Source: Fictibacillus halophilus (lineage in GTDB: Bacteria > Bacillota > Bacilli > Bacillales > Fictibacillaceae). From it: 64,000 nt of DNA. This document shows positions 9,191-26,236 of this stretch, in pieces (the stretch's first letter is position 1; every line of letters starts with the position of its first letter). The stretch spans positions 1,612,001 through 1,676,000 of the forward strand of contig NZ_JAEACF010000001.1 of NCBI RefSeq assembly GCF_016401385.1, given 5' to 3'. The translations under genes were made by a program, and so were the position numbers. The notes under the pieces were generated by a model. The model made no database searches and had not been told where the DNA came from. It saw only the letters and a list, made by a program, of their open reading frames with translations.

Positions 9191-9193
9191 TAA

Positions 9194-9222: not shown

Positions 9223-9464
9223 ATTTATTAGAAGATTCTTTATTTAACTTCTCCCTTTACAGGTTCCTTATTAAAAATATCATTCATCAAACTATCATAC
9301 AGCATAGTTTATTTGATATGGTAAATAGTTCTTCAAAATTATTTAATTTTAGTCATGGAAAGCCAGTACTTTTAATCCCTCTTATAATTGATGAATTTGA
9401 AGTTCCGCTTATTATCAATCTAAATATATAATTACTACAATGGCTATCAATATAGTTTTTAATG
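9223..9464. other. Segment between two matching terminator hairpins, no convincing gene
   Basis: This 240-bp AT-rich stretch lies between two hairpins with the same AAAGCTTAAGGA stem. A plus-strand frame runs through it but overlaps the ArsR gene and the first terminator and has no ribosome binding site. A 37-codon tail from ATG 9318 reads protein-like (FSHGKPVLLIPLIIDEF) and may be the remnant of a lost gene. This is the left edge of the defence island. Confidence 0.4.
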
Positions 9465-9498
9465 AAAAAGCTTAAGGATCCTTATCCTTAAGCTTTTT
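9465..9498. terminator. Strong bidirectional terminator at the left edge of the island
   Basis: A perfect 15-bp stem (arms 9465-9479 and 9484-9498) with loop CCTT, an A run on one side and a T run on the other. It can end transcription of the methyltransferase operon on the minus strand and read-through from the ArsR operon on the plus strand. Confidence 0.85.
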
Positions 9499-9547
9499 TG
9501 AGATAGATAATTCTTCAAAGATTCTTTCTTTGAATTTAAAGAGTGAT

Positions 9548-10840
9548 TTAATTAACTTTATTGAGTACTATCACCCAATCTTTATTAATAATACCACCTT
9601 TTCCATTTCTCGGAAAAACCAAATGTCGATCTTTAATAATATAGCTATAAATAGTTTCTAATTCAAAACCAGCTTGCTGTGCAAACATTATTAAGTACTC
9701 ACTAATAGGAATTTCTAAGTTTAAAACTGTGTTATTGCCCACCACTATGACATATTTTCCATTATTCTTAATCACATTAGATACACATTGGATATTCTTT
9801 CTCATACCTTCAAAGTATTTATAAATAATATAAGACTTCTTTTGATTAACCTTAAAAATATCCTCTAATTGCTTATCAAGCTGCTCTAATCCAGTCTTTT
9901 GTAGTTCTTTGTATTGGTTTACATAATACCGGTCAGAACCAATATACTCTTTTCTGTGTTCATTAATTTCACTATCAGCAAAAAAATCTAACCATTGATA
10001 TTCAAGTTTAAAAACAGCTGGGTATTCTACTGCTGTTACATAAGGAGGAGATGTTATTGCTAAATCCACCTTCACCTTAGGTTCTTCAGTAATATCAGAT
10101 AAACTAAAATCAGCTGCGCTACTTGCTATTACTCTGGCAGAAACATTATTTACTCTTAACGAATTATAAAGGTGACTCATTCCTTTTAAATACTGATGAA
10201 ATCTTCTATCAAACATTTTAAATACATCAGCAGGAGGCTTTCTGAATCTGGAAGACACATATGTTTTTTGTGATCTGTACTCCGCATTAGAACATTTTCT
10301 AATAATTGCTGAAAATGTAATTAAAAAGAAATCTTTTATATCCTGGTCTTCTATTTGCAATATATAATATTTAAATCTGGATAAATTATATATTGATTCC
10401 TCTGTAAACCATTTTGTTATATTTGGTATATCTGGAATCACATTTTCTTTTATGTTTGTATCTGCATTAATATTAATAATAAGATTTGTATAACATTCTT
10501 CTAGCTTTAAGGGATCTATAGGTGTAGTTTTTACTTTTGCGATTAACCTAGCAACAGGATTAACATCAAACCCAACTGCATGTCTATTATATAACAGACT
10601 CTCAATTGCTGTTGTACCTGATCCTAAAAATGGGTCTAGAACTAAATCGCCAACCTTTGAATACTCTTCAATTGCCCACCTAGGAATTTGAGGAATAAAT
10701 TTTGATGGGTATTTATGAATGATGTGAGTAAATTCAGTTACATTCTTATCATTAATATCGAATGTGTCGTAAAGTTTAATTTCATTTTTTGATGGTAATT
10801 TAGCACACTCTATTATTTTTTCTTTAGTATCAGTTATCAC
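9548..10840 (-). CDS. DNA amino-methyltransferase 1 (N6-A or N4-C, TSPPY type)
   Basis: 430 aa. The SAM-binding motif DPFLGSGTT is at residues 69-77 with the following acidic strand AVGFDVNP, and the catalytic motif TSPPY is at 263-267. TSPPY indicates methylation of an exocyclic amino group (N4-cytosine or N6-adenine), not C5 of cytosine. The SAM motif comes before the catalytic motif. The start is GTG with GGAGTGA upstream, and it is separated from the stop of the second methyltransferase by 14 bases, so the two are one operon. It is likely the self-protection arm of the restriction genes on the other strand. Confidence 0.88.
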   Translation of the reverse strand: MITDTKEKIIECAKLPSKNEIKLYDTFDINDKNVTEFTHIIHKYPSKFIPQIPRWAIEEYSKVGDLVLDPFLGSGTTAIESLLYNRHAVGFDVNPVARLIAKVKTTPIDPLKLEECYTNLIININADTNIKENVIPDIPNITKWFTEESIYNLSRFKYYILQIEDQDIKDFFLITFSAIIRKCSNAEYRSQKTYVSSRFRKPPADVFKMFDRRFHQYLKGMSHLYNSLRVNNVSARVIASSAADFSLSDITEEPKVKVDLAITSPPYVTAVEYPAVFKLEYQWLDFFADSEINEHRKEYIGSDRYYVNQYKELQKTGLEQLDKQLEDIFKVNQKKSYIIYKYFEGMRKNIQCVSNVIKNNGKYVIVVGNNTVLNLEIPISEYLIMFAQQAGFELETIYSYIIKDRHLVFPRNGKGGIINKDWVIVLNKVN

Positions 10841-10854
10841 TTTACTTCACTCCA

Positions 10855-12186
10855 TTATTTTTTTTCCAAAAGGATAATACTTTCTCTCATGTATTGTTTT
10901 AAATATTTATTTTGATTTATTTGTTGAGAAGAAGTATTTATGCTCCTACACACGCCGATTTCTTTGACTTTAAATCCTGCATTTTCCGCTATATAAGCAA
11001 GCATTAGATCAGTAGGAACTATGTATCCTTTATATGCAGAGTTTGCAACAACAATTGCAACTTTCCCCCCGGATTTCATTAATGCATAGAAATGTTTGAT
11101 TGATTTTGTCATATCATCAAAATAACCATTTATCATTCTTGGAATTTTATTATCCCAGAGATCAAATTTATCTATCTCTTCACTAATCCACTTAATTAGT
11201 GGATATACATGTTCCATATCAGGGTTTACGCTACCATTAACATGTGACCTAATTGCCATTTGACGAAGTTTTTTAAAGTCCTTGTAATCTTTAACAAAAT
11301 CCCCCATCCATAATTCCATTTTATAAACTGCACAATAATCAAAACAGTTAGCATAGGGTGGTGAGGTAATTAAGAAATCATACTTTACATCTAGAAGCTC
11401 TTCATTTTTTTTGATATCAATAAATGATTGATGAAAAACACGAGTTAAACTTTCACTCTTTTTTATTGGTGCAATTTTTATATCTTCTTTAATCTTATTT
11501 AATGTCACAAGGTATTCTAATTCTACGTCTTTCGGATTCGGATTCTTTTTATATTTTATTCCGTTACCGTCTTTTTTCATATTAGATACAGATTCTATTA
11601 TTGAAAGGTATGCTAATTTTAATAAATAGTGAATTCTCACACCTTCATAGTTTGCTATAAAAGCTTTTAGCTTTAGTAAATCGTTTAATTGTTTCTCTTG
11701 AAAGATTTTATCTATAATTGAAAGATTAGGTTTGTCTGCTTTTTCGTATAATGCTTCAAGATTCAGTTTTTGAATAATTTGTTCTATTTGTAAGATATCA
11801 TCATTATTGTAATCTTGAGTTTTAGCTTTAGTAATAAAAACTGATATTGGATTTACATCAAAACCTACTGTGTTTAAACCTAATATTTTTCCAGTTAGTA
11901 GACTTGTGCCACTTCCAGAAAAAGGATCTAATAGATATTGACCTTCTTTATAACCGAATTTTTCTAAAAGATTTTCTACAAGCCTTGTTGAGTAGCCTTC
12001 TTTATAGTTAAACCAGCTATGATAGGGCTCCGATTGATTGGTAGAAAAATTAACCAAGTTTTTATATTCTTCACGGTTTGTAATATTATAATTTGATTGA
12101 AATACCTGTATTTCAGAAGCAAGTAGATCATAAGATGAAACATTACTATCTATATAGTTTAATAAATTCCCTGCATTTTTTTCCAT
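10855..12186 (-). CDS. DNA amino-methyltransferase 2 (N6-A or N4-C, TSPPY type)
   Basis: 443 aa with the same layout as its neighbour: DPFSGSGTS at residues 87-95, NTVGFDVNP next, and TSPPY at 274-278. The N-terminal 60 residues and the middle differ clearly from the first enzyme, so they are paralogues rather than a recent duplication. A pair of methyltransferases fits either an asymmetric site with one enzyme per strand or two different bases. It is the first gene of a leftward operon and starts 16 bases after a perfect palindrome. Confidence 0.88.
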   Translation of the reverse strand: MEKNAGNLLNYIDSNVSSYDLLASEIQVFQSNYNITNREEYKNLVNFSTNQSEPYHSWFNYKEGYSTRLVENLLEKFGYKEGQYLLDPFSGSGTSLLTGKILGLNTVGFDVNPISVFITKAKTQDYNNDDILQIEQIIQKLNLEALYEKADKPNLSIIDKIFQEKQLNDLLKLKAFIANYEGVRIHYLLKLAYLSIIESVSNMKKDGNGIKYKKNPNPKDVELEYLVTLNKIKEDIKIAPIKKSESLTRVFHQSFIDIKKNEELLDVKYDFLITSPPYANCFDYCAVYKMELWMGDFVKDYKDFKKLRQMAIRSHVNGSVNPDMEHVYPLIKWISEEIDKFDLWDNKIPRMINGYFDDMTKSIKHFYALMKSGGKVAIVVANSAYKGYIVPTDLMLAYIAENAGFKVKEIGVCRSINTSSQQINQNKYLKQYMRESIILLEKK

Positions 12187-12201
12187 AAATTAACACCGCC
12201 C

Positions 12202-12213
12202 GAACAATTGTTC
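12202..12213. promoter_or_regulatory. Perfect 12-bp palindrome upstream of the methyltransferase operon
   Basis: GAACAATTGTTC lies 15 bases before the ATG of the second methyltransferase. On the minus strand an AT-rich TATATA box lies directly upstream of it. The position near a transcription start fits an operator that controls methyltransferase level, as is common in restriction-modification systems. The binding protein is unknown; no separate C-protein gene was seen. Confidence 0.45.
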
Positions 12214-12383
12214 TATATATGTTTATTATATCTTGATTTTTTTATTAAAGCTAGAATTTCTGACAAGATGTTCAATTATAACATATTTACTTTAAAGGCT
12301 TTTATATTATTTTAATTAAACTGATTTATAAACAAAGGTACTTATGGTAAATTATTACTACAATAACATTGAGGAGAATTAAT

Positions 12384-13208
12384 ATGGATCTTAAAGGCTG
12401 GAGTAATCCTGGAAGAAATATTGAAGATAAATTACATGAGCAGTTTTATAACATGGTTAACACACTTCAAGATAAGCATTTTACAAAACACCGAAATTAT
12501 TTACAGATAAAAAGTGATTTAGTTTTATCCCTTGGTTTAAAATCAGATGGTCAATTAAGTACCATTAAAAATACAATAGAGGATCTTGGTTTAGTTAATC
12601 GCGGTATACTTGAAAGAAGAAACACTAATTTTTCAAAAGACAAACTTCTTACAGATTTAGGAAGGGTCTTATTCTCATTAATAGAGATTGAAAATGAATT
12701 ATTAAAACAAAATGAGAAAATACCACTCCAGATTAGCAAATCTATAGAGGACATGTATAAGTCTTTTTATACAGAGGCTTTGATAAACTATTATTTTACT
12801 AATGGAGTTAGAGATGGAATTAATAGTAGATTCCATCCAGTGAGAGCTATCTTAAAACAATTAAGAAAGTACGGAACATTGGATTTTTTTGAGTATTATT
12901 TACTTTGTACTCATATTTATGAGGATGATAATGAGCAACAAGAAAAACAATTTCAACAGGCTATAGAAGACTATCGAGCCGGTAATATAACTTTAAGGAA
13001 AGCTAATATCATTGAACAAGTTAAGGGACATCAATATCTTCCACAATGGATTGAAAAGGCAAATTTCATAAAAATAAAAAGAGGTACAAGAATATATGAT
13101 TGGCAAATCTCAGAAAATGTAGTAAATAAAGAAATAGTTGATCATATATTGCATAGTGACTTTCTTGATAATCTTTACAAAACTATATTAGAGGAGAAAA
13201 AAATATGA
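12384..13208 (+). CDS. First gene of McrBC-like restriction operon, possible DNA-recognition subunit
   Basis: 274 aa starting at ATG 12384 (GAGGAGA ribosome binding site 7 bases upstream; a TTG at 12369 is inside the ribosome binding site region and unlikely). Residues about 30-100 look like a winged helix (YLQIKSDLVLSLGL, then TIKNTIEDLGLVNRG, then LTDLGRVLFSLI). There is no nuclease or ATPase motif. It overlaps the next gene by ATGA. By position it could be the site-recognition or assembly subunit, comparable to the first restriction gene (ydiR) of BsuMI, but sequence similarity was not checked. Confidence 0.65.
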   Translation: MDLKGWSNPGRNIEDKLHEQFYNMVNTLQDKHFTKHRNYLQIKSDLVLSLGLKSDGQLSTIKNTIEDLGLVNRGILERRNTNFSKDKLLTDLGRVLFSLIEIENELLKQNEKIPLQISKSIEDMYKSFYTEALINYYFTNGVRDGINSRFHPVRAILKQLRKYGTLDFFEYYLLCTHIYEDDNEQQEKQFQQAIEDYRAGNITLRKANIIEQVKGHQYLPQWIEKANFIKIKRGTRIYDWQISENVVNKEIVDHILHSDFLDNLYKTILEEKKI

Positions 13209-13696
13209 GTGGAAATAGCCCCATGAACAAAGCAGTCGATTTAGCAAGAGCTAAAGTTATGCAAAATATTGAAATCATTGCAACCCAATTTGGTTATAAG
13301 AGTTCAGAAGCTAAAAGACCATCAATATCTTGGATTGATATATGCACTGATAAAGAACTACAAGAAAAAGTATGGCATTCTAAGTTGAAAAATTTTCAAC
13401 AAGAAATTCCTTCAAAAGGTGATTCAGTATATTTATTTAATGATTCTACATTTGCCTGTCAAAATAAATATAAAGTCGGCTATGTAAATATAGAAGATGA
13501 AAATATTCAAATAGAATTGGTTGAAGAAGAATTTGTTCCCGAAATAACATTGGATTCATTCATAAGCCAAGAAGGTTTATCTGAGGAATTAAAAATCGAA
13601 CTCACAGAAAAGGTACTCTCTTCGGAAGAAGGCAACATCAGTGTAAGTAAGCAGACGTCTGAGACAACTTTTGAAATTAAAGAAAAAAGGGAGTAG
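13205..13696 (+). CDS. Small acidic subunit of the restriction operon, unknown
   Basis: 163 aa, soluble, with a very acidic second half (SEELKIELTEKVLSSEEG). The middle contains a beta-rich stretch (DSVYLFNDSTFACQN, KVGYVNIEDENIQIELVEEEF). No known motif is visible. Its ATG overlaps the upstream stop (ATGA) and it is six bases from the AAA+ gene, so it is cotranslated with both. It may be an adaptor or a recognition partner. Confidence 0.6.
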   Translation: MSGNSPMNKAVDLARAKVMQNIEIIATQFGYKSSEAKRPSISWIDICTDKELQEKVWHSKLKNFQQEIPSKGDSVYLFNDSTFACQNKYKVGYVNIEDENIQIELVEEEFVPEITLDSFISQEGLSEELKIELTEKVLSSEEGNISVSKQTSETTFEIKEKRE

Positions 13697-13701
13697 TTAT
13701 T

Positions 13702-14730
13702 ATGCCTATTTTAAATAAAAGTGATGAAGAAATTTTAGTAAATGTTGCAAATAAGAAATTAAAGGTTTCGGTTACTCCTGCACAAGTTAAGTCTGAACTA
13801 CCTTTTGATTTTAATATATCCGATGATTTATTAAAACAGATGTGTGCAGCTTTAAACAGCGATAATCATTTAATTTTAACTGGTCCCCCTGGAACTGGTA
13901 AGACGACACTTTCAGCTGCATTATCAAAAGCTGCTAAAATGAATTATCTTCTGACAACCGCAACTGCGGATTGGACAACTTTTGATACTATAGGTGGTTA
14001 TATGCCTGATATTTCATCAGGAAACCCCAACAGTTTAAAGTTTGAGGAGGGGATTTTTCTACAGAGTATAAAAAATCAAGAATGGCTTATTGTCGATGAG
14101 ATAAATAGAGCGCAGATAGACAAAGCGATTGGTGCTTTGTTTACAGTATTATCTGATGGTGATGCCACCTTACCATACAGAGATAGCAATTCACGTAAAA
14201 GAATCATGATAAAATCTCAAAATGGCTTAACAACTCAAGATACCTATTACAAAAATGATAATTGGAGGCTTATTGCAACAATGAACGAGTATGACAAGAC
14301 ATCGCTTTTTGATATGTCATATGCATTCATGAGACGCTTTGCAATGATAAGAATTGGAGTCCCTACAAATTTCGATAACTTGGTTGAAGTTTGGTCTAAT
14401 AGTATTGGTTTAGATTCTGATATTACAAAAAATCTTAAAATGGTAGCAAAAGAAATATTAGATGGTAATCTTAGAGAAATCGGTCCTGCGATGTTCAAAA
14501 ATATAATAAAATATTTAGATACTAGGAAAAAAAATGATTCCCAGATTATACAACATTATGCAGAATCTTTTGTATTATATGTTCTTCCTCAATTTCAAGG
14601 ACTTGACCACTTAGAAGTAAATAAATTATATCAATTATTAAAGCCAATACTAGAAAGGGAAACAAATAGTGATTTGTATTTTAAAATAAATATAGAATCC
14701 ATGACGGGTATACCTTTAGGTGACATTTAA
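13702..14730 (+). CDS. McrB-like AAA+ NTPase of restriction module 1
   Basis: 342 aa. Walker A GPPGTGKT at residues 61-68, Walker B with the McrB-type DEINRAQID at 132-140, and the ATMNEYD signature (192-198) that corresponds to the MNxxD GTP-specificity motif of McrB. An arginine finger region FMRRF follows. The N-terminal part (about 50 aa) is too short for a DNA-reading domain, so recognition must come from other subunits. The size equals that of YdiS of BsuMI as I remember it. A one-base overlap (TAATG) couples it to the nuclease gene. Confidence 0.87.
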   Translation: MPILNKSDEEILVNVANKKLKVSVTPAQVKSELPFDFNISDDLLKQMCAALNSDNHLILTGPPGTGKTTLSAALSKAAKMNYLLTTATADWTTFDTIGGYMPDISSGNPNSLKFEEGIFLQSIKNQEWLIVDEINRAQIDKAIGALFTVLSDGDATLPYRDSNSRKRIMIKSQNGLTTQDTYYKNDNWRLIATMNEYDKTSLFDMSYAFMRRFAMIRIGVPTNFDNLVEVWSNSIGLDSDITKNLKMVAKEILDGNLREIGPAMFKNIIKYLDTRKKNDSQIIQHYAESFVLYVLPQFQGLDHLEVNKLYQLLKPILERETNSDLYFKINIESMTGIPLGDI

Positions 14731-16052
14731 TGAAAACATTAAAGTCTAATAGAAGAGCATTTATAGAAGAGAATGAAAAATATATAAAAGATCGTTATAA
14801 ATTAATTTCAAATGTTAACAAAAACCTTCTTGCTTTAAATTTATATAGACATAGTGATTTGTTAAATGGTGTTTCTTCTGTATTAGGCTGTGAAAACGAC
14901 CTTAAAATCAGTGATTTTAAGGATTTAGCAACTGTTCATTTCTTATTAAAATGTGCAAGAAATGATATACATAAAAAGTTTATTTACATTTTAGCTAATA
15001 TTGATAGAAATACCAATGTTAATCAAATAGAAACTCGTGGTTATATACAAGGTTCGGTTGATTGGAATTCGACATATAAAAGGAGAATGATAACCGGTTT
15101 TCAAGACTCTTCTTTATTTATATGTAATCCTTCTCAAAAAATATACGATATTCCTTCAAACCAACTTATACGTTATATTATCGAATTTATTTATCGGGCT
15201 ATACCCGTTGCACTTAAAGCTGCACCAGGTAATTCTGAAGGTTGGACACAAAAACTCGAGCATTTATTTGATGAAATAAAACAATTAAGAATGCACCCCA
15301 GGTTAAGGGGAATTTCAATTCCTGATCATTTACAGTATAAAACTATTCAATCAACAAAAAAACACAGAAATTCAATATATAGAGAAATTGCTGACCTCGG
15401 AGAATTGTATTATAAGTTATTCTATTTACATGAAACTCAAACCTTGTCTAATGTAATAAATGAACAACTGATAGTTCCAAAGAAAAATGATAAAATTTTT
15501 GAGTTTGTAATTCTTTTTGAATTAATGAATATGCTAGAATTTTTTAGAAAAAGATTCGGTGGAGAAAGAAAAACTACTCTTATTAGAGCAGAAGAAAAGA
15601 CAGTTTTTACTTATATTTACCCTAAAAATGATAATGAATATATACATATTAGTATATATTATCAACATGTACCTATTGAGTTTAAAGGTAGTCAGTATGT
15701 AAAAACATTAAAAAGATACTCAATTGAAAATATAAAAACAAGACAACCTGATATAATACTTGTTGTTAAACATTTTAATAAAAATACAATAATAAAAAAA
15801 AGAAGTTCAATTATTGAGATAAAGTATTCTGACAGTAGATTGTATTTAGGTGAAGGAGTTCATGATCTTTTATCATATCTTCATGATTTCAGTCATACTT
15901 TTACAAAAAACCCTAAATCATTGTTAACAATTTGGGATAGTAAAATGATAATACCTGAACTTTCCGAAGAAATAAACCAAGAAATCTGGTTGACTGATTA
16001 CAGCAGATTAAAAAGTTCATTAAAAAATTTTATTATTAAAACACTAAAATAA
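14730..16052 (+). CDS. McrC-like PD-(D/E)XK nuclease of restriction module 1
   Basis: 440 aa. The C-terminal nuclease core shows P-D341 in RQPDIILVV and E363-I-K365 in IIEIKYS, the PD-(D/E)XK pattern. The N-terminal half is helical, with an RGYIQGSVDW-TYKRR segment as seen in DUF2357/McrC proteins that dock on the AAA+ ring. It should cut DNA when driven by the AAA+ protein. Base use is very AT-rich, like the whole module, and suggests horizontal gain. The specificity is not known. Confidence 0.8.
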   Translation: MKTLKSNRRAFIEENEKYIKDRYKLISNVNKNLLALNLYRHSDLLNGVSSVLGCENDLKISDFKDLATVHFLLKCARNDIHKKFIYILANIDRNTNVNQIETRGYIQGSVDWNSTYKRRMITGFQDSSLFICNPSQKIYDIPSNQLIRYIIEFIYRAIPVALKAAPGNSEGWTQKLEHLFDEIKQLRMHPRLRGISIPDHLQYKTIQSTKKHRNSIYREIADLGELYYKLFYLHETQTLSNVINEQLIVPKKNDKIFEFVILFELMNMLEFFRKRFGGERKTTLIRAEEKTVFTYIYPKNDNEYIHISIYYQHVPIEFKGSQYVKTLKRYSIENIKTRQPDIILVVKHFNKNTIIKKRSSIIEIKYSDSRLYLGEGVHDLLSYLHDFSHTFTKNPKSLLTIWDSKMIIPELSEEINQEIWLTDYSRLKSSLKNFIIKTLK

Positions 16053-16082
16053 ACAATTTAAATGTAGTATCTAGACTTGTAA

Positions 16083-16125
16083 AAAAACCAAGAAACTACT
16101 TGTTAAAAGTAGTTTCTTGGTTTTT
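16083..16125 (+). terminator. Strong terminator closing restriction module 1
   Basis: A perfect 18-bp stem (16083-16100 and 16108-16125) with a 7-base loop; A run before, T run inside the distal arm. It lies 30 bases after the nuclease stop and could work in both directions. Confidence 0.9.
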
Positions 16126-16169
16126 AAAATAAGTTTGTATATGTATATTGATGTAATCTTATTTCCTTC

Positions 16170-16394: not shown

Positions 16395-16470
16395 TCGGTA
16401 AGAAAACTTTTAGGTAGCGTCCAATTTTATAATTGATAATAATTTTCTATTATCATTATCACGATTGCCG

Positions 16471-18960
16471 CTAGTTGTTTAAAACCTCGATTATATACTT
16501 AAATAATCGAATAGGATTATTTAAGTATTCTTCTCTATCAATTGATTTTAATTGCATACCTCCCACACGTTTAACTTGTATTTCAAGATTGCCCACAGAA
16601 ACTAATACTTCCCCTGATTTTATTTGAACAATTTCTGATGCCTGATCAACGTGTTTATGGTTCAAGTTAATTTTAGGATTGTTTGATAACCTACGCATGG
16701 TTTTCCAAATTGCTAACTCATCTTTACTTTTCATATAAAGTTCAGGTAATTCTGTAGCTTCTTTCAAATTATTTAGAGTAGTTAGCATGTATGAAGATAT
16801 CCCATAACCAACAGGTTTAATCACATTCTTCAAAGCTTCCCAAACAGTCACTGTAAATACAACAAGTTGTTCATTATTATTTAGCGAACTAAACTGGATG
16901 TCATCTATTTTACCGTAATACTTTACTCCGTTATTTTTCGAAACATTACTGGATAGGTAAAGGGCAATATGCTTTGCCTCTTGCCACCCTTTTTTCAAGT
17001 CCTTAGCTGATATCTTAAACGTTTTTTGTTGGATGCAATCCGTAAAAACTTCCTCATCACTTACTAAGCCAACCAGAACGGTTTCATCTAATGAAGACTG
17101 CCAGCGAGCTAATGTACCTCTTGGTAATATACCTTCTTCTTGAATTTCTTCAGGACTTTTTTCAATGAGGTGTTCCACAAACTGCTCAACTAACCTCGTT
17201 GCATTTGGTAAGAAAGGTAATCCTCCGATATTAACAGTCTCAATGCTTTTATAAAAAGCATGCTGCTCATACAATTCTTCTTCAAACCAAGGGAATAACA
17301 CGTATGCCCCAAAGGCTGTTCGTTCATATGGCCCTTCATGCTGAACAACTAACGCATCTCGGTATCGATGCATCGTGTTAATATCATCCTCCATCGGACC
17401 AGGGCTCTTATAGCGTTTTCCGTAATAACTATCCTCTACCGCAAAATCAATACGATATTTGGCATCAAAAATATAGTTATAGCTGTAGTCCTTACCTTTC
17501 TTCCGAATACTCAACATCGTATCGGGTTTCTGTGAGATCGTTGGAAGCTGCCTTTCTTCCTTTTGATATTGAAGAATAATCTTCTCTCCTGTATATGGGT
17601 GCTGATATACACGTTTAGCTGAATTACTACGTACAAGGTTCACAAACAGACCTTCTCTATTCACCTTCACCACATCTTGAGATAAGAGTATATACTTCTT
17701 ATCTAAGAGAGCACCAAGCTTAAGGTATGTCCAATACTCATAAAGCTGAGCTACATCTTTAACTGACATTTTATAGATTTGACCATGTAGTTCTAATCCA
17801 CGTGTAAGTAGAGCATAAATTTGAAAAGCCTCTCTATATCCTGGTGCCATCTGAATGACTAAGCTCATTACAGAACGATCCAATTTACTGATGGTCTTCC
17901 AAAATGGGTTTTTAATTCTTTGCTGAAGAAGTTTTTGCATGTCTTTGATCGCCTTAACCACTTGTTGATCTGGTTCTGTTTTATATCTTCCATTTGGAGC
18001 TTCTATCTTTCTATAGAGATCCTTAAGCTTATCTTCAATTCGAATTAGCAACCACTTAATTAGACGATTTTCCATCGTATCAAATGAGTGCTCTTTTATT
18101 ATCTGCCAACCCTCAATAGGCATAAGTTGTTTATTCTCAAACTGAATACCTTTTGGAACCTTTGGAACCTCTTGAAACAATGAAGCTTTTTTTCTAAGCT
18201 GGTTACGACCATAAGAGTCCATCTTCTTAAGTTGGTCACCTCTCACCTTTTGATGCGTGGTTATCAGTTGATGATGGGGTTGTTGTTCAATTCTTTTGAT
18301 CGCCTGGAGAAAAGATCTAAAATGGTGTTGAATTAGCCTATAAAATTCAGCAGCACTTGCTTCTCCCTCTACCCTAGTCCTCGCACCAAGATATGTTTTT
18401 CGTAAGAAGTGAAACGCTAGATTATAGATTTCTTCATTCACTTCATCTAGGAGCTTTCGATAATCTTCTTTATAATCAAGCTTTGAAGGAAAGATTTCAA
18501 AAGTTACAGACAATAAGATTTTTCCTTGCGAACGAATTTCAAAGGATGACAAGCCGACTTCATTCTGAAATTGTAGACTTCCCATCAGAACCTGCTTAGG
18601 ACCGACTGGAACACTGCTCACAGCATTTCGTAAAAGATGATGTTCGTGATAGAACTCTAACTCCGCATCTATTTTTGATGTAACGATAATTTGATAGTTT
18701 CCATTCTCAAAAAAGATGGGTCTAAAAGTTGAACCAGCAGCTAACACTTGTTGATCTACATCAAAAACTTTAACAGACTGAATCGACTTTCCTTTAGCCT
18801 TAAACTCCATCGTTTCATTTTGCAGTTTCTTCTTATATTGAGACAACCCTTCAAACCGCTGATGATAAGGTTTTCCTTTCATAAAAAGAGTAAATTCAGC
18901 CGTTTCAATTAAAACTAGCTCAACATCTTCACGAACCAATCCAGAAGGAAGTGAAGCCAT
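16471..18960 (-). CDS. DUF2357 PD-(D/E)XK nuclease of type IV-like module 2
   Basis: 829 aa. A long beta-rich N-terminal part (about 1-160) is followed by a helical DUF2357 region with the VAQLYEYWTYLKLG motif (403-416) and a nuclease core with P-D480 (QKPDTMLSI) and D499-A-K501 (YIFDAKYRID). The C-terminal 250 residues look like a further domain. The start overlaps the end of the AAA+ gene by 32 bases, so the two are translated together and probably form a McrBC-type complex. It is much longer than classical McrC (about 350 aa). No methyltransferase is linked, which suggests it targets modified DNA. Confidence 0.85.
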   Translation of the reverse strand: MASLPSGLVREDVELVLIETAEFTLFMKGKPYHQRFEGLSQYKKKLQNETMEFKAKGKSIQSVKVFDVDQQVLAAGSTFRPIFFENGNYQIIVTSKIDAELEFYHEHHLLRNAVSSVPVGPKQVLMGSLQFQNEVGLSSFEIRSQGKILLSVTFEIFPSKLDYKEDYRKLLDEVNEEIYNLAFHFLRKTYLGARTRVEGEASAAEFYRLIQHHFRSFLQAIKRIEQQPHHQLITTHQKVRGDQLKKMDSYGRNQLRKKASLFQEVPKVPKGIQFENKQLMPIEGWQIIKEHSFDTMENRLIKWLLIRIEDKLKDLYRKIEAPNGRYKTEPDQQVVKAIKDMQKLLQQRIKNPFWKTISKLDRSVMSLVIQMAPGYREAFQIYALLTRGLELHGQIYKMSVKDVAQLYEYWTYLKLGALLDKKYILLSQDVVKVNREGLFVNLVRSNSAKRVYQHPYTGEKIILQYQKEERQLPTISQKPDTMLSIRKKGKDYSYNYIFDAKYRIDFAVEDSYYGKRYKSPGPMEDDINTMHRYRDALVVQHEGPYERTAFGAYVLFPWFEEELYEQHAFYKSIETVNIGGLPFLPNATRLVEQFVEHLIEKSPEEIQEEGILPRGTLARWQSSLDETVLVGLVSDEEVFTDCIQQKTFKISAKDLKKGWQEAKHIALYLSSNVSKNNGVKYYGKIDDIQFSSLNNNEQLVVFTVTVWEALKNVIKPVGYGISSYMLTTLNNLKEATELPELYMKSKDELAIWKTMRRLSNNPKINLNHKHVDQASEIVQIKSGEVLVSVGNLEIQVKRVGGMQLKSIDREEYLNNPIRLFKYIIEVLNN

Positions 18961-20980
18961 CTAGCTGATACCTCCTAATCATATCCACAATCTTTTGTGC
19001 AGACTTAGGATATTTTGCTTTATCGAATTCAGGAAGGATATCTGTATCATAGACCTGATTCGTGCAAATTACATAAAGTCCCTTAAGAGTATCCCATACA
19101 CGTTCATCACTACCTGAAATACGAGGAAGTATCTTCTGAAGAATTGATTGATCTATAGCTTCTTTAAATGTCAGTAAGTTGTCTTTCTCGCTATAAATTA
19201 CATAAAAACATATTTCATCTCGTACCCGATAACCGACCTGTGCACCAATACCTTCAAGTTGTTTGTTAATATCGACTAAAACTTCTGTTACCTTTTTAAT
19301 TAACGCCATGTTATTCCGGTAAGCATCTTTTAAATGCAAGAAGTCCCCCGCTAAAGACTGATTTTCTATAGACAAAGGTTCCTGTTCTTTAAGATCCTCT
19401 AAGAAAGCAAAGTGATCCAATTGAACTCTATTAAACTCAATTGTATTTGCACGGTCCAACACCTTTTTGCTAAAAGGATGTGTCGTCTCGTCCATGTTTA
19501 CCGTTCCAATAATATAAACATTTGAAGGGAGGATAATGTCTCTGCCATCCACCTCAAAAGGTAATACCGGTGTCGTTATAATCTCTCCATTTTCCCGTTG
19601 CCGACTTTCCATTACACTTAATAAATCACTGAAGTAATATTCCACTCGCGCTAAGTTCATTTCATCAAGTAAAACAAAGAAAGGTTTGGTCGGATCATCC
19701 ATTGCCCTTTCCAAAACTGAAGTTAATAGACCTTTCTTAAAGTCACCCTTAATATCTACATAACCTAATAGGTCAGAACCATCACTCCAGTCAGGACGTA
19801 CTGGAATTAAGGTGAACTGACCATTTCTCTCTGTAGCACCCAAACTCTCAGCAAACCACTGAACCATTTTTGTTTTACCTGTACCAGATATACCGGAGAG
19901 TATGACAAAAGGTTTTGTTTTTAACGAAAGAAAAAGATTGATGACTTCTTCTTTCTTATAGTAGAAACCTTTGCTTTGTATGTAAGAATGTATGTGATTT
20001 GTTACATTCATACCGTTTATATCACTTATTCCTTTTTCTACAATTGAATCTTTATGTAAAAATGCATTTTTAATTTCCATTGGAAAACCCTCTCCAAACA
20101 TTGAATACAACTGACTAGCAAAGCTTTTTGAAACAGAGTAAAAGTAACCTTGTTTGATGTCGCCATGCTTATCAAAAGGACCTTTTTCTTCAATTCTCCA
20201 ACTTTCAGGTATTTCTATTTTCGGAATTGGTTTATTTAAATCGAAATAATTAACTTTTAATTGATTTCCATCAACTTGCCATTCATCAGTTTGTATTTCC
20301 TTTGGTTTAGCATGCTGTTCAGCTTCTTTATTTACAATTCCAACACACCTGATGTGCATGTTGCTGTACACAAAAACAATATCACCTTTTTTTGCTTTTA
20401 ATAAATCTGTGTGATGGGCTAATGGTGAGCCATTTTTCGCTCTTTGTGGTGCCCATAAATAACTACCACTTCTCTCTTGAATATGGGTTTTCCCCTGGTT
20501 TACCCACCAGAAAGCATTATTAGATATTCTCTTAAATGGATCTAATTTTATTGTAAATACAAAAGGATTCTCTGTTTTATAAAATTCAATATATTCTGCT
20601 TGATCCAGAGGGACATGAACCTGTTGTTTTTCGTTTTCTATTCTTCTTTCTCTTATGTATTCATAGCTTTTGTTAAATGTAGTAAGTAGAATTTGTTTTA
20701 ATTTGGCATTATTGTCGTACCTTATTTGTAAAGAATCTACACTAACACCTTTTCTATCAACATTTGTTAATTGAGCATCATATACTTCATCATCTAGAAT
20801 TAACTTAATGTTATATTTTTCTCCTCTATTAACATGAGTTCCATGATTTGCTTCCTCAAAGTCTTCATGAAACTCAATCGGTATATGAGATCCATTACTA
20901 AATATTGACCAGTCAACTTTTTTCCTTGCAATCATTTGTGAATGTGTTTTTGACCAACTTCTTTTTTCTTTTATCATCAT
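18929..20980 (-). CDS. EVE-like domain McrB-type AAA+ NTPase of module 2
   Basis: 683 aa. Residues about 150-290 look like an EVE/PUA-type domain (SGSYLWAPQ, KAKKGDIVFVYSN, RCVGIVN), a fold that reads modified bases. An extra N-terminal beta domain (30-110, IPIEFHEDF) precedes it. The AAA+ part has Walker A GISGTGKT (363-370), DEMNLARVE (439-447) and the GTVNMDET signature (492-499). Two ATGs are possible (20980 or 20977) behind CAGGAG. An EVE plus McrB layout is known for modification-dependent restriction, so the likely target is phage DNA with altered cytosines; this is an inference. Confidence 0.85.
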   Translation of the reverse strand: MMIKEKRSWSKTHSQMIARKKVDWSIFSNGSHIPIEFHEDFEEANHGTHVNRGEKYNIKLILDDEVYDAQLTNVDRKGVSVDSLQIRYDNNAKLKQILLTTFNKSYEYIRERRIENEKQQVHVPLDQAEYIEFYKTENPFVFTIKLDPFKRISNNAFWWVNQGKTHIQERSGSYLWAPQRAKNGSPLAHHTDLLKAKKGDIVFVYSNMHIRCVGIVNKEAEQHAKPKEIQTDEWQVDGNQLKVNYFDLNKPIPKIEIPESWRIEEKGPFDKHGDIKQGYFYSVSKSFASQLYSMFGEGFPMEIKNAFLHKDSIVEKGISDINGMNVTNHIHSYIQSKGFYYKKEEVINLFLSLKTKPFVILSGISGTGKTKMVQWFAESLGATERNGQFTLIPVRPDWSDGSDLLGYVDIKGDFKKGLLTSVLERAMDDPTKPFFVLLDEMNLARVEYYFSDLLSVMESRQRENGEIITTPVLPFEVDGRDIILPSNVYIIGTVNMDETTHPFSKKVLDRANTIEFNRVQLDHFAFLEDLKEQEPLSIENQSLAGDFLHLKDAYRNNMALIKKVTEVLVDINKQLEGIGAQVGYRVRDEICFYVIYSEKDNLLTFKEAIDQSILQKILPRISGSDERVWDTLKGLYVICTNQVYDTDILPEFDKAKYPKSAQKIVDMIRRYQLDGFTSFWIGS

Positions 20981-21095
20981 TTACTCCTGATGGATTATCA
21001 TAAAAGATAATTATTTTTTATAAATTTTAGATTTTAGACAATGCTTCAAATTTACAGGTTTATTGTAGAGTCAAACCAACCTAGTTAAACTCATA

Positions 21096-21602
21096 CTATT
21101 CTTCTAACCACGTTGTAAAAAAACTCCAATCTTTAACGGTTCCATCTTCATTTAATAAACCTAAGTAAGTACCATCACCCTTACCAACTTGCCAAATGGC
21201 TTGGGCAGTATTATCTTTTTCAGAAATTCCACTGCTCTTTATGTAATCAAAAAAGATATTTTTACCTGATCCATAATTCTCAGCAACATATGCAATCAAG
21301 TAAATGTCCACACAACTTGCACCCAGTTCCTTTGGGTGGAAACTAAGAATATGAGATTTTAGCAACTGAATAACTTCTTCATCAGAAATAGTTAACAATT
21401 CATCTTTAATGTTATTAATATGGTAAGATTGATAACTTCTTTTTTCCCACTGTTTTAATTGATAATAATCTCCATTCACTGTTGAAAGCTTTTTAAGCAT
21501 ATTCTTAAGATTACATACTGTAGGGATTATATTTGTGTGAATACTTCTACCACGTATATTATCAGGTAGTGTGTATACAATAATATCTTTTTTGATATCC
21601 AT
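21096..21602 (-). CDS. Unknown third protein of module 3
   Basis: 168 aa if started at ATG 21602, which has AGGAGC 8 bases upstream, overlapping the stop of the nuclease gene. An upstream in-frame ATG (21632) lies inside the nuclease gene and has no such site. It is soluble, with no ATPase, nuclease or membrane motif. Helical middle; C-terminal pattern AQAIWQVGKGDGTYLGLL and a Trp-rich end. It is the last gene of the AAA+/nuclease operon, so a role in that system (adaptor, effector or control) is likely. I do not recognise the family. Confidence 0.65.
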   Translation of the reverse strand: MDIKKDIIVYTLPDNIRGRSIHTNIIPTVCNLKNMLKKLSTVNGDYYQLKQWEKRSYQSYHINNIKDELLTISDEEVIQLLKSHILSFHPKELGASCVDIYLIAYVAENYGSGKNIFFDYIKSSGISEKDNTAQAIWQVGKGDGTYLGLLNEDGTVKDWSFFTTWLEE

Positions 21603-21612
21603 CTCTGCGCTC

Positions 21613-23088
21613 CTAAATTGAGTTCCTATCATGTTCTTCGGTTACTCCAGGCATCATTTTTACTGCCCCCATCTTGTACCTTTGATGAAATTGATCAGCA
21701 TAATATCTGAGTTCTTCTCCTGACTCCTGAAACGGTGTCAGGATATACACTTCTTCTACTACTTTTTCATCCGTAAAGACGTTTCTAATCCCATCCCTGT
21801 ATTTATGCATTTCACCCAATGCTGTACCTATGTTGTTCTGTACACGATATTTCGGATCATAAATAAATAGCTTTTTCCCTCGCTGGATGACAATGTCAGG
21901 AATCATCCTTTGGGTGAAGGTATAAAAAGGCGCTTTTGTATTAACTGCAACATGTTCTGGATTTCGATACTGAAACACACGCTGGAATGAAATGGTGTCA
22001 CCGTTTTTTAGTTTAACGGTACTCTCTTTGTTTTCCGCTAACGAGAGAAATATCCCGTCTGATGTAGTTTTATAAAGCTGTGATGAATCAGCCAGTTCCC
22101 CGTTCTGTCTTGCTTGTTTGATTAACTTCATGTAGCACCACATTTCATATACTTGAAACGTATCTTTTAACGGTATGTGATACTCAAATCCAATCTCATA
22201 CTTCTGATGCTGATACAGCTTTTCAAACCATGTGTGCCATTTTCGATAGATCGGATGCTTTCTTAACCGTTGTGTGATGGTCACCTGGCCGTTATAAGAT
22301 TTGATATCATTCAAGAATGAATGGTTCAGCCAGTACAACACCTTGTTTCTTAGTTTCTCTGCTTCCTCTTTTAACACACCATCCGCATAATCACGGTATT
22401 TGGAAAGAAGATGTCTTAGTTCAAGAAGCTGCTTTTTTACTAAACGGTTTTCATACAGGTCGTTCGTTTCCTGCCGTTTTGACGTCCACACTTTTTTAGG
22501 AACAAGCAGTTCTGTCCGGCCGTGATTTCTTTCCAGCCATAGTGACGTAGATGTATGTACCTGCTGGATTTTTTCACGGTTCGTTATGAAGTTTTCCTGC
22601 TTAAGAACAGATAATGGATTGCTGTTGATTTTTTGAAACAGCAGGGATAACTCGTGAAAGCTTCTTTTAATGTACGACCATTGTGTCCAAGACAGAGTAC
22701 GTTCTCTTCCACTTGTATTGAACCCATTATTCAGGCCGCTATAATCAAAACAAACGGCTGCTTCCTCAAGTATTTCTCTCAGCATGATCTCATACTGCTC
22801 GGTCGTCATCTTTCTTTCATCGGTATAGATGTAAGTTTTTAGGTGAGTTCCATTGATTTCAATAGTTGCTTCCCCTGATTGAAAGGGTGTCTGCAGCGTT
22901 CCTCTCACTCCAGATTCATTTGGAACGAACGGTAGAGGCATCCCGTTAAACAATATGACAGGATTGCTCTCACTCTCCAGTTTCCACTCATAAGAAGTGG
23001 CTTCTCTTAAATAAGCTTCTTCAAGTGGAAGCCAGCCTTCTTCATTACTCCGGATATATAGATTAACGCCAGAACTGGGTTGCTCCAT
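21613..23088 (-). CDS. DUF2357 PD-(D/E)XK nuclease of type IV-like module 3
   Basis: 491 aa. The DUF2357 helical region holds the TFQVYEMWCYMKLI motif (310-323), matching the sister motif in the 829-aa nuclease. The nuclease core is IPDIVIQ (D398) and IYDPKYRV (D411-x-K413). The N-terminal 90 residues form a small beta domain. Its start lies 26 bases inside the end of the AAA+ gene, so they are coupled. It is expected to be the cutting subunit loaded by the 753-aa AAA+ protein. Confidence 0.85.
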   Translation of the reverse strand: MEQPSSGVNLYIRSNEEGWLPLEEAYLREATSYEWKLESESNPVILFNGMPLPFVPNESGVRGTLQTPFQSGEATIEINGTHLKTYIYTDERKMTTEQYEIMLREILEEAAVCFDYSGLNNGFNTSGRERTLSWTQWSYIKRSFHELSLLFQKINSNPLSVLKQENFITNREKIQQVHTSTSLWLERNHGRTELLVPKKVWTSKRQETNDLYENRLVKKQLLELRHLLSKYRDYADGVLKEEAEKLRNKVLYWLNHSFLNDIKSYNGQVTITQRLRKHPIYRKWHTWFEKLYQHQKYEIGFEYHIPLKDTFQVYEMWCYMKLIKQARQNGELADSSQLYKTTSDGIFLSLAENKESTVKLKNGDTISFQRVFQYRNPEHVAVNTKAPFYTFTQRMIPDIVIQRGKKLFIYDPKYRVQNNIGTALGEMHKYRDGIRNVFTDEKVVEEVYILTPFQESGEELRYYADQFHQRYKMGAVKMMPGVTEEHDRNSI

Positions 23089-25324
23089 AACGCTCCAGCT
23101 CCTTTTCCATTCTCATGATATGACCAAAAGATTGAGATTCTTCACCAAAGTGAGCTTGGAATTTAGTTTTAAGCTTTGTAAACAAGTCAGTAATTCGCTC
23201 GTCTCCTCTTAATTTCGGTAGCATTTTCTCACTGATCACTCGATCCAGTGCAGACATAGAATCGAGACTGAACTGCTCATCCAGTTCCTTATTCCTCACC
23301 AGCTTCTGAACCATCTCGTTCATCGTTCTGTAGCCAAAGTGAAGGTCAAATGATTTTAGATCATTGTGAATGTCACAAAGAATATCATATTCATTACTGA
23401 CCATTGATTTAACCGATTGATCAAGTGTTGACCAATAATGATCAAAATCAACATCTGATAGTGTCATCACAAAAGCACGGTCAAGGACCTTATCTGACAA
23501 GCTATGCGTCGTCTCGTCCACATTAATCGTTCCCAACACATACACGTTTGGCGGGATGCTGATCTTTTGTGGAATATCCGTAACATCCTCTCGGTTATGC
23601 AGCAGGATTTCTTTGCGAGACTCAACAGCACTTAAGTAATCACTCAAGTAATATTCCACCCGAGCCAGGTTCATCTCGTCTAGCACAATAAAATGAGGCT
23701 TGTCTCGTTCCTTTTGAGCTGAGATTAATACCTGGAGGAATTCTGTCATAATATATTTTTTCTCAAATGAACTATAATACCCGAATAGCGCTGTAGCATC
23801 CATCCAATCAGGACGAACAGGAATAATCGACAAATAGGGATTTTCAGCCTCATAGTCAAGTCCGTACACAGCATTCGCATACAAACGGCACAACTGCGTT
23901 TTCCCCGTACCAGAAATTCCATTTAAGATGACAAAGTGCTTTTCATCAAGTGCTGTTAAATTCAAATGGAAATCACGAATGATATCTGTTGAAAAAGTAA
24001 ACTGGCTGTTAGCAATTGTTTCGTGAATTTCTCTGAATGAGAAGTTGCTGACAAACTTGGCTTCCAGTATTTCTTCTGTTTCATCTTCATTTGAATCAAG
24101 TATAGCTGGATCCGTATCCGGCAGTTCTAATCTCTTACTGACATAAGCAAATAGTAAACTTGCTGTAACAAGTTCTTTTTTTATCACGGAAATCTCCTTA
24201 TTAAACAACTTGGTTTCGTTGTTATATAAGCCCACATAATAAGAATTTCCTTCTGTTTCAAAACCATGTTCATTTAAAAGCTCCATCGCATTTCTATTCA
24301 ATTCTGTATTATCTAGGTGCCGTGTTGTGAAAACTTTTTTTATCCACCACTCTGCTTCATCCTTAAGAACAAGGTCTCTTACGTTCGAGTAAATATGGTC
24401 ATGACCTTCAATTGCTACACAAATTACTTGATTCGGTGAAATCGTTTCATCAATTTCGAAATATATTATAAAACCTTTAGTAATTAATTGGTCCTGATCA
24501 TAAATAGAAAACGCTTGTCTTTTAGCCTTTGATTTAAAATGATCTACTTCCCCAAAAATTAGAGAGTAAGAATGCTCTAATAACTGAATAGTATCTTTCC
24601 TGTATCCCTCATTAATAAAAAGATCTAAAAACTCGTTTCCTTGTTTGTCCCACTTTTTTTCTTCCATTAATTTTTCTTTAACAATTTCAGTATTCTCCCA
24701 CACTTTTAACAAGTGTTTTTCCAATTCCTCTTTTGAAATTTGACCGTATAGAGGTAGCTCCGTCCCAAAGTGATAGTAAGGACGTTTTCTTTGTTTTCTA
24801 AAGGTAGTAAACACTGGTTTAAAATTAGATTTCAATACTTGTTCTTTTTTAAACCAATCTGATTGAAAATAAATGGAAACATCCTCAGGCAATTGCTGAA
24901 TGGCCGGCATCAATTGATCGGCTCTCATCAAATACCAGATTGGGAGAAAAGTTGAATCAACTGAAATATAAAGCTTTTGGTCAACACCGTTCAGTTCCAG
25001 TGTTAATAAGTTTACCTCTTGTTCTCCTATTTTTTCGTTAAGAGCGACGTAATATTTTCTCCCTATTTTTGTGCTCTTTTTTTGTTCAGCTAATTTTGGG
25101 TTTTTTGAATCATGATAAGTAGTAGTTAAAGTAACAGAATAATCTTTTATAACTCTGTTTTCTGTAAGTAGATTATTATCATGACAAAAACGCTCAAAGA
25201 AAGCCTTTATCTCAGGATGTATATTGTCTAAAACACTTCTACATCTGTCCGAAGTGTCAATTTCATTAAAGATAGTTTGATATTTTAAAAGATCGAATGT
25301 GGTTGTAGACGTGTCATGCACCAT
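23063..25324 (-). CDS. McrB-type AAA+ NTPase of module 3
   Basis: 753 aa. The C-terminal AAA+ domain has GISGTGKT (469-476), DEMNLARVE (549-557) and GTINVDETT (598-606). The roughly 440-residue N-terminal region is not recognised; it contains a beta-rich unit (KKYYVALNEKIGE-like, residues about 85-155) reminiscent of MrcB_N and a second alpha/beta unit (280-380) that may be another base reader. AAAGGA precedes the ATG. The AAA+ core shares the DEMNLARVEYY block with module 2, so the two modules are related, but the N-terminal readers differ and so may their targets. Confidence 0.85.
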   Translation of the reverse strand: MVHDTSTTTFDLLKYQTIFNEIDTSDRCRSVLDNIHPEIKAFFERFCHDNNLLTENRVIKDYSVTLTTTYHDSKNPKLAEQKKSTKIGRKYYVALNEKIGEQEVNLLTLELNGVDQKLYISVDSTFLPIWYLMRADQLMPAIQQLPEDVSIYFQSDWFKKEQVLKSNFKPVFTTFRKQRKRPYYHFGTELPLYGQISKEELEKHLLKVWENTEIVKEKLMEEKKWDKQGNEFLDLFINEGYRKDTIQLLEHSYSLIFGEVDHFKSKAKRQAFSIYDQDQLITKGFIIYFEIDETISPNQVICVAIEGHDHIYSNVRDLVLKDEAEWWIKKVFTTRHLDNTELNRNAMELLNEHGFETEGNSYYVGLYNNETKLFNKEISVIKKELVTASLLFAYVSKRLELPDTDPAILDSNEDETEEILEAKFVSNFSFREIHETIANSQFTFSTDIIRDFHLNLTALDEKHFVILNGISGTGKTQLCRLYANAVYGLDYEAENPYLSIIPVRPDWMDATALFGYYSSFEKKYIMTEFLQVLISAQKERDKPHFIVLDEMNLARVEYYLSDYLSAVESRKEILLHNREDVTDIPQKISIPPNVYVLGTINVDETTHSLSDKVLDRAFVMTLSDVDFDHYWSTLDQSVKSMVSNEYDILCDIHNDLKSFDLHFGYRTMNEMVQKLVRNKELDEQFSLDSMSALDRVISEKMLPKLRGDERITDLFTKLKTKFQAHFGEESQSFGHIMRMEKELERYGATQFWR

Positions 25325-25527
25325 AGTTCCAAATCCTTTCTAAATAGATTAACAAATAGCTCCACAGGTTTATTATTTATCAATTAATGTAAATACCATT
25401 ATTTAAATAGATACGGTTATCTTGTTATACCTCTCATTATATAATAAATCATTTGTAATGTTTTCCAAATTTTATTATTCTACTAATATACGTGTGTTTA
25501 ACTATTATTGGAAAGGATATTAAAACA

Positions 25528-26205
25528 ATGCTAAAAGGTTTTTTATCATTTTTAAATAAGAAGAGCAATAATACAACTATACAAAATGTTGTATTTTCTC
25601 CTCAGAAAATCTACCTTTACCAACCCGATCAGAATGAACTTCAAAAAATTATAGATAAACCATTTCCAGAAGGGAAAGCTCCAGGTTATGTTTATTTTGT
25701 GCAAGAACATCTGAACGGGACTTTTAAGATTGGAAAGACAAAACATATAGAAAAGCGGATGAATGTCTTTGGTGTAAAACTACCATTTAAGAATGAACTT
25801 ATATATTTGATTAAGACTGGTGATCATCATCAAACAGAAGTCGCATTTCACAAATATTTTTCTCAAAAGAGGCTAGAAGGAGAATGGTTTCAATTAAACC
25901 AAGAAGACATTACTTGGATTAAGGAGCAAAAATATACCACTGAAATATTTAAATCTATACATTCACTAAGTATAGATGGGGTTAAAAGTAAGGTTAAAAC
26001 AAACAAAGTATATTTAACTCCCAAACAGATTGAGTATGCTATTTCAATGGTAAACAAATTAGATAGATACGAACTAGTTATTAATCATGCTGAACTTACA
26101 AAGAAAGATCTTGATCGCCTAATCATGTACTCTAAGTTTAAAAATAAAGGAACTCTCGTAAATATGGTTAAAGAAGGAATACTAAAAGAAAAAATAACCA
26201 TATAA
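25528..26205 (+). CDS. GIY-YIG nuclease-like protein (T5orf172/MUG113 type)
   Basis: 225 aa from ATG 25528, with GGAAAGGA 10 bases upstream; an upstream GTG (25492) lacks one. The central domain (about 55-135) matches the T5orf172 version of the GIY-YIG fold: GYVYFVQE, then GTFKIGKTKHIEKRM, and the EVAFHKYFSQKRLEGEWFQL end. The C-terminal 80 residues are helical and basic. Such proteins are often found in phages and defence regions and may nick DNA. It is divergent from the module 3 operon and marks the right edge of the island. Confidence 0.8.
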   Translation: MLKGFLSFLNKKSNNTTIQNVVFSPQKIYLYQPDQNELQKIIDKPFPEGKAPGYVYFVQEHLNGTFKIGKTKHIEKRMNVFGVKLPFKNELIYLIKTGDHHQTEVAFHKYFSQKRLEGEWFQLNQEDITWIKEQKYTTEIFKSIHSLSIDGVKSKVKTNKVYLTPKQIEYAISMVNKLDRYELVINHAELTKKDLDRLIMYSKFKNKGTLVNMVKEGILKEKITI

Positions 26206-26210
26206 ATATA

Positions 26211-26236
26211 GAAAGTTGCCTAATTTGGCAACTTTC
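26211..26236. terminator. Bidirectional terminator
   Basis: A perfect 10-bp stem (GAAAGTTGCC, 26211-26220; GGCAACTTTC, 26227-26236) between convergent genes, directly after the GIY-YIG stop and at the stop of the hydrolase on the other strand. Confidence 0.8.

Follow-up and report, generated by a model that had tools for sequence, protein, structure and literature searches.

Background

Several described restriction systems join an McrB-type AAA+ protein to a PD-(D/E)xK nuclease, and three such pairs, here called modules M1, M2 and M3, lie side by side in Fictibacillus halophilus, at 9223-26236 of a stretch of 64,000 nucleotides (the window; G000:C1:1612001-1676000, where G000 is its 3.92 Mb genome). 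LlaJI and PcaI restrict unmethylated DNA and have cognate C5 methyltransferases adjacent, and in LlaJI the reader is fused to the AAA+ protein (PMC1459862 and PMC8989522, as far as their accessible parts go). LlaI and BsuMI encode short AAA+ proteins (LlaIB, 337 residues; BsuMIB, 343 residues) in restriction cassettes of three open reading frames (accessible part of PMC1459862). EVE-McrB is given as the commonest architecture among the EVE proteins of defence systems in the accessible part of PMC7641849, and the pocket residues assigned to the flipped base and to the gap are described for the EVE-HNH protein VcaM4I, structure 6YEX (PMC7897488). McrB proteins with an NxD motif, the clade of CoCoNuTs, CoCoPALMs and their relatives, form a separate branch, none of whose members had been characterised according to the accessible part of PMC11090510. 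A literature search combining Fictibacillus, restriction and "defense systems" returned no paper, and one on the BsuMI genes yielded nothing useful.

The locus compares with these systems as follows. As the initial annotation had it, three AAA+ proteins with a DE(M/I)N motif, each with its own PD-(D/E)xK partner, occupy 17 kb. All three pairs are intact, with open reading frames at the coordinates given below; the motors match AAA_5 as well as McrB models and structures and show Walker A, DEIN or DEMN and Nx(x)D, and the nucleases read PD-EIK (M1), PD-DAK (M2) and PD-DPK (M3). The motors are not all of one form: that of M1 is NxxD (ATMNEYD), whereas M2 and M3 have NxD followed by E (GTVNMDE, GTINVDE), and the M1 nuclease matches neither DUF2357 nor RE_LlaJI. 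Close relatives in each motor group keep their form; one distant M2-group sequence (L032) reads NxxD and two truncated sequences are unreadable. Motor identities are 22% (M1-M3), 23% (M1-M2) and 34% (M2-M3). Because the motors differ both in NxxD/NxD form and in identity, the modules are not recent tandem duplicates, and that origin was rejected.

The interval is a variable chromosomal site, or hotspot, that holds three separate McrBC-type restriction systems of known kinds. Taken as a whole, the observations are best explained, we believe with good probability, by a type II-like M1, a type IV M2 whose reader is exchanged as a cassette, and a second NxD McrBC, M3.

A variable site whose modules were probably acquired separately

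The genus sample comprised 18 genomes (G labels; L labels denote mapped stretches), that is, G000 and 17 congeners. The site was measurable where the AHSA1 gene on its left and the abhydrolase gene on its right share a contig, which they do in 13 of the 18. Their spacing there, obtained by subtraction, ranges from 10.1 to 66.5 kb, and none of these 13 genomes has an empty site. In the window, position 9223 directly follows the terminator of an ArsR gene (9194-9222), and 26236 falls within a stem-loop that resembles a terminator (26210-26237), next to the abhydrolase gene (26237). Since both ends fall at terminator structures, the interval is a real island. DNA homology to six relatives ends at 9177-9233, at or near the ArsR-gene terminator.

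The content of the site differs between strains. G015 and G003 carry M3 without M2, and G016 and G008 carry M2 without M3. In G011, M2 and M3 are collinear with the window over 10.6 kb at ∼84% DNA identity, without M1, and in G002 M2 lies beside a further, EVE-bearing AAA+/nuclease pair of the M1-motor group. Part of the cargo is non-defensive, such as the CoA-transferase and aconitase genes of G011.

Counted over the genus, M2 is present in 5 of the 17 congeners (G002, G004, G008, G011 and G016; motors 87-92% identical to that of G000) and M3 in 4 (G003, G005, G011 and G015; 46-82% identity over nearly the whole length). The two occur together in one congener, G011, against 5x4/17 = 1.2 expected. 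The sole congeneric match to the M1 nuclease is a relative of 22% identity in G002, and the G+C content of the M1 genes is 26-32%, compared with 37% for the window. Because M2 and M3 co-occur at chance, the M1 nuclease is nearly absent from congeners and the G+C content of M1 is low, these data speak for separate acquisition of the modules rather than for one machine. The three would be expected to act independently.

The reader of M2 is exchanged on a near-identical motor

M2 consists of an 829-residue McrC (16471-18960, minus strand; DUF2357 E 1.3e-81, PDDEXK_7 E 2.2e-55) and a 683-residue McrB with an NxD motor (18929-20980, minus strand; PADLOC PDC-M26A E 4.7e-53; Walker A, DEMN), in which the break between reader and motor lies near 20004. 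The EVE-like reader proposed by the initial annotation is clearly present: residues 157-297 (20090-20512, minus strand) match VcaM4I 6YEX at E 3.6e-17, and the VcaM4I pocket residues E15, P24, W82, Q128 and Y130 correspond to E169, P178, W234, Q277 and Y279, five of five. An unnamed N-terminal domain precedes the EVE domain. With a predicted McrB GTPase, a DUF2357-PD-(D/E)xK McrC and a modified-base reader, M2 has the features of a type IV McrBC. By homology, its EVE domain would flip out C5-modified cytosine, either 5-methylcytosine (5mC) or 5-hydroxymethylcytosine (5hmC); the NxD motor would then engage McrC, and the DUF2357-PD-DxK nuclease would cut. M2 shares its EVE pocket with EVE-McrB and VcaM4I, and the NxD-then-E motif and DUF2357 McrC with the NxD clade. 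It differs from described EVE-McrB in its NxD motor, its additional N-terminal domain and its exchanged reader, and both M2 and M3 differ from the NxD clade in that the PD-DxK motif of their McrC is intact.

Two reader classes occur at this one site. In the EVE class (G000, G011 and G002), the reader is the unnamed N-terminal domain plus EVE, and the alignment retains all five pocket residues in the other two alleles as well. In the second class (G008, G016 and G004), it is an N-terminal region X plus MrcB_N (PF12102, which we take to be DUF3578; E <=1.6e-53). Between the classes blastp finds no match in the reader, while the motors are 87-92% identical, and the DNA match to the alternative alleles ends at 19984-20004, the reader-motor border. 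The motor nearest to that of G000 (92.5%) belongs to G008, a member of the other class. The M2 reader has been swapped wholesale, EVE against MrcB_N, on a near-identical motor. In a tree of six sequences built from motor plus McrC, reader class must change at least three times, and forcing the three EVE alleles into one clade costs 164 log-likelihood units (p of the approximately unbiased test 3e-81). Within M2, it would be the DNA reader that changes fast, passing between strains as a cassette, rather than the motor-nuclease core.

Three points weigh against repeated exchange as read from this tree. The tested group was defined after the pattern had been noticed; once the distant outgroup G172 is included, none of the inner branches is starred, and a single change is all that the starred branches force by themselves; and recombination of the motor would produce a similar effect.

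A wider comparison covered 17 M2-group McrB proteins (motors 46-94% identical), whose arrangements were read from pairwise matches and partly checked by Pfam. Five clear reader arrangements were found: N-terminus plus EVE (as in G000), X plus EVE (G084), X plus MrcB_N (eight sequences), MrcB_N followed by an X-like region (G080), and only MrcB_N (G039 and G077). Two readers are harder to classify: that of G172 combines EVE with an N-terminus that is different or has diverged, and that of G099 is unrelated and may be incomplete. No description of McrB reader exchange at one site was found in the accessible parts of the literature, which is no proof of absence.

The initial annotation had reasoned that, if M1 methylates DNA that M2 or M3 would cut, their readers must be blind to the mark set by M1, whose methyltransferases share the island with M2 and are assigned to M1 by layout. 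For M2 this concern is weaker than it seemed. The M1 enzymes are predicted to methylate exocyclic amino groups (N6/N4 class) and the known ligand of the EVE pocket is C5-modified cytosine, so the M2 reader should not sense the M1 mark; G000 has no C5 methyltransferase match at E 1e-10. Ten site genes scanned from the five M2 congeners contained no methyltransferase at E 1e-4. An MrcB_N-type allele of M2, on the other hand, might conflict with M1, as considered from this one genome: E. coli McrB, with its DUF3578 reader, also restricts N4-methylcytosine (4mC) (PMC7641849, accessible part). A C5 version of the conflict idea, in which the EVE allele occurs only where C5 methyltransferases are missing, was unsupported, with a match to such an enzyme in one of three EVE-allele genomes (G011) and in none of three MrcB_N-allele genomes.

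M1 has a LlaI/BsuMI-like layout and a probable separate recognition subunit

M1 contains a short AAA+ protein, separate small subunits and two methyltransferases, and the genes and families named in the initial annotation are borne out. DNA methyltransferases A (430 residues, 9548-10840; Pfam N6_N4_Mtase E 4.1e-17, PADLOC MTase_II E 1.6e-80) and B (443 residues, 10855-12186; E 9.1e-11 and 2e-93, respectively), both with FxGxGT and TSPPY motifs, lie on the minus strand, divergent from four plus-strand genes. These encode a protein of 279 residues (12384-13208), a small subunit of 163 residues (13205-13696), the AAA+ protein of 342 residues without fused reader (13702-14730; AAA_5 E 1.1e-20, E. 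coli McrB E 8.5e-8) and the nuclease of 440 residues (14730-16052). The first of the four was initially listed from 12369; because the frames of its relatives begin at 12384, that start is the probable one, giving 274 residues. All genes listed in the initial annotation are present.

The AAA+ protein has Walker A, DEIN and NxxD; its top PDB sequence match is midasin (over several summed stretches), followed by E. coli McrB. In all 18 other genomes that gave a match, its best relative has a long open frame (584-977 residues). For the nuclease, no credible Pfam match was found up to E 0.1, neither DUF2357 or PDDEXK_7 nor RE_LlaJI, the only hit being RelE at E 0.02. Its PD...EIK motif is retained in relatives P0030-P0032, and in all six mapped loci its relatives adjoin an M1-group AAA+ gene. 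Plasmids, many of them haloarchaeal, hold relatives of the nuclease (20 records) and of the AAA+ protein (27 records); neighbours were viewed for two. The 163-residue protein, encoded between the 279-residue protein and the AAA+ protein, had no match in Pfam, PADLOC, NCBIfam or PHROGs at the limits used.

By layout, M1 stands closest to LlaI and BsuMI, with a short AAA+ protein of similar length, no fused reader, and two putatively cognate methyltransferase genes. It differs in having four restriction-side open reading frames and two divergent N6/N4-class methyltransferases; BsuMI uses C5 methyltransferases. The YdjA-YdiS model 9a5m was not among the PDB sequence matches of M1, although the entry may simply lie outside that set. 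M1 shares with LlaJI and PcaI an McrB-type AAA+ protein, a PD-(D/E)xK nuclease and adjacent methyltransferases, but their enzymes are of the C5 type, the LlaJI reader is fused rather than separate, and the M1 nuclease lacks a RE_LlaJI match. Nor does that nuclease show the McrC domains DUF2357 and PDDEXK_7, although its PD-EIK motif is present.

The 279-residue protein is rare, with three proteins, itself included, among 5.8 billion in a word-based search. Of 40 matches to it, 38 were weak (E 3e-4 to 0.01, mostly frames of ∼1200 residues) and were dropped, leaving G000 and G414. In G414, which belongs to another genus, the distant relative lies just upstream of another short reader-less McrB, whose motor is NxD. 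Profiles found nothing in genome contigs or viral contigs, the patterns being narrow; the M1 and G414 proteins had no match on plasmids, the profile gave only weak, unrelated matches in the PDB, and in a phylum sample the family occurred in 1 of 398, that is, itself. An AlphaFold2 model is of low confidence (predicted local distance difference test score 59), yet its best eight structural matches are all BpuJI or BspD6I, which makes the protein the probable sequence reader of M1. Alternatively, it could regulate the short McrB or help to assemble it, as the poor model and the winged-helix regulators in the lower structural ranks would allow. We consider this unlikely, given the eight best matches, the position of its relatives upstream of two unlike reader-less motors (NxxD in M1, NxD in G414) and the lack of any other reader in M1, unless the 163-residue protein serves as one.

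With the 279-residue protein as reader, M1 would be a self-protecting, type II-like system. Its two methyltransferases would mark both strands of a probably asymmetric site, and the recognition subunit, perhaps with the 163-residue protein, would act in trans to bring the AAA+ ring and the PD-ExK nuclease to unmodified sites for cutting. The combination of self-protected and modification-dependent restriction expected by the initial annotation is consistent with such a methyltransferase-bearing system beside an EVE system whose 5mC/5hmC pocket is intact.

The M1-group pair of G002 (L038 2388-6470) is an NxxD McrB with an EVE domain and a nuclease, adjoining M2. None of its scanned neighbours (a UvrD-NERD gene and genes of 401 and 204 residues) is a methyltransferase.

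M3, a predicted NxD McrBC whose reader has two domains

M3 comprises a 491-residue McrC (21613-23088, minus strand; DUF2357 E 5.2e-16, PDDEXK_7 E 1.1e-13) and a 753-residue McrB (23063-25324, minus strand; Walker A, DEMN), and from sequence it has the core of a type IV McrBC, a predicted McrB GTPase with a DUF2357-PD-(D/E)xK McrC. Structure prediction of the readers, proposed in the initial annotation, was carried out for M3: the AlphaFold2 model shows two alpha/beta domains and no long coiled coil, so M3 falls outside the CoCoNuTs. Domain 1 (residues 7-224; 24653-25306, minus strand) matches in the model the fold of B. subtilis Q45498 (PDB 2a8e). A sequence relationship to DUF1054 (YktB) was rejected: a clean 20-row profile scored 21.2, below the 25.4 reached by the best of 60 shuffles, which is not significant, and an earlier YktB profile match (E 0.00077) was discounted, as its alignment included one unrelated row. 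For domain 1, only the fold match to 2a8e stands. For domain 2 (225-395), no match stood out in a minimal search. M3 would be the second McrBC of the NxD kind at this site, with a reader built of two domains.

The large reader described initially is confirmed, but the supposed third gene is neither constant in M3 nor confined to it. This 178-residue gene (21096-21632, minus strand) is present in three of six M3 loci (G000, G011 and G015) and absent from G003, G005 and G083. Matches occur in eight other genomes; one (G127, a 45-residue frame with one stop) was dropped, and of the seven mapped none lies beside M3, that of G172 adjoining an M2-like pair. The gene is probably a passenger and not part of the module. 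In two genomes, a 280-residue protein containing the 178-residue domain is paired with a gene of 160/161 residues (L142 4161-5500 and L143 4921-6272); the two may form a separate two-gene system.

M3 might instead be partnered by a methyltransferase, in a type II-like manner, or tolerate 5mC, and so not be modification-dependent. Within the genus, C5 methyltransferase matches occur in 4 of the 5 genomes that carry M3 and in 3 of the 13 that lack it (post hoc; Fisher ∼0.05 by hand), and in G015 one of them adjoins the 178-residue gene that follows M3. G000, however, has M3 without a C5 methyltransferase, the enzyme is on another contig in G005 and ∼16 kb away in G003, and no methyltransferase is a conserved neighbour, all of which leaves this explanation rather improbable.

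A joint layered defence is poorly supported

Weakest is the joint layered defence put forward in the initial annotation, in which M1 would mark self, M2 and M3 would remove modified phage DNA that M1 lets through, and selection would hold the three together: it can draw on their adjacency in G000, the order and identity of M2-M3 shared with G011 and the EVE-bearing M1-group pair beside M2 in G002, but with M2 and M3 together at chance frequency, the M1 nuclease in no congener apart from the 22% relative, and only one of M2 and M3 in 7 of the 8 congeners that have either, the modules come and go separately and we regard this proposal as very unlikely.

Other features of the site

A GIY-YIG/T5orf172 gene that the initial annotation did not mention (25492-26205, plus strand; MUG113 E 4.3e-13, T5orf172 E 7.9e-10) is resident at the right edge, where it is found in at least six congeners (G002, G003, G008, G011, G015 and G016) whether M3 is present or not. 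At the left edge, the ArsR-gene stem-loop is present twice, 273 bp apart (9192-9225 and 9465-9499). Stem-loops with like arms occur in six other stretches of the site (L035, L038, L039, L081, L084 and L090, the L090 copy being distant from its ArsR gene) and have no match in 681 kb of other loci. The doubled stem-loop is possibly a recombination site or a trace of stacked insertions.

Judged by size and order, the sites of G016, G004 and G002 each hold a pair of genes of ∼400 and 204 residues (L039 10007-11878, L040 4345-6171 and L083 1811-3643); the only Pfam match among them is a bacterial PH domain in the 204-residue gene of G016. Elsewhere in the window, a 750-residue gene (44515-46767) of 53% G+C, against 37% for the window, adjoins two genes that look by eye like glycosyltransferases.

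Implications for McrBC systems

Two features appear new as far as could be seen: an NxD McrBC whose alleles at a fixed site have exchanged readers, and a rare candidate for a stand-alone reader, found with two different reader-less McrB motors. Together they invite a broader and more tentative proposal, plausible though short of probable, that the McrBC core is a general translocating cutter and its DNA readers are interchangeable cassettes. Exchange would occur in cis, as in the several swaps of EVE and MrcB_N on one NxD motor-nuclease pair, and in trans, where a type IIS-like 279-residue family would serve both the NxxD motor of M1 and the NxD motor of G414. The cases of M1 and G414 suggest that a free-standing protein, usable by different McrB motors, can confer restriction specificity.

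A bolder corollary, if true, is that a swap to EVE lets the host accept an N4-cytosine methyltransferase system such as M1, since DUF3578/MrcB_N readers can sense 4mC. In M2, an NxD McrB carries a reader for which crystal structures of a homologue show the ligand, and the alleles with alternative readers on nearly the same motor are natural controls through which the effect of the NxD motif and that of the reader are experimentally separable.

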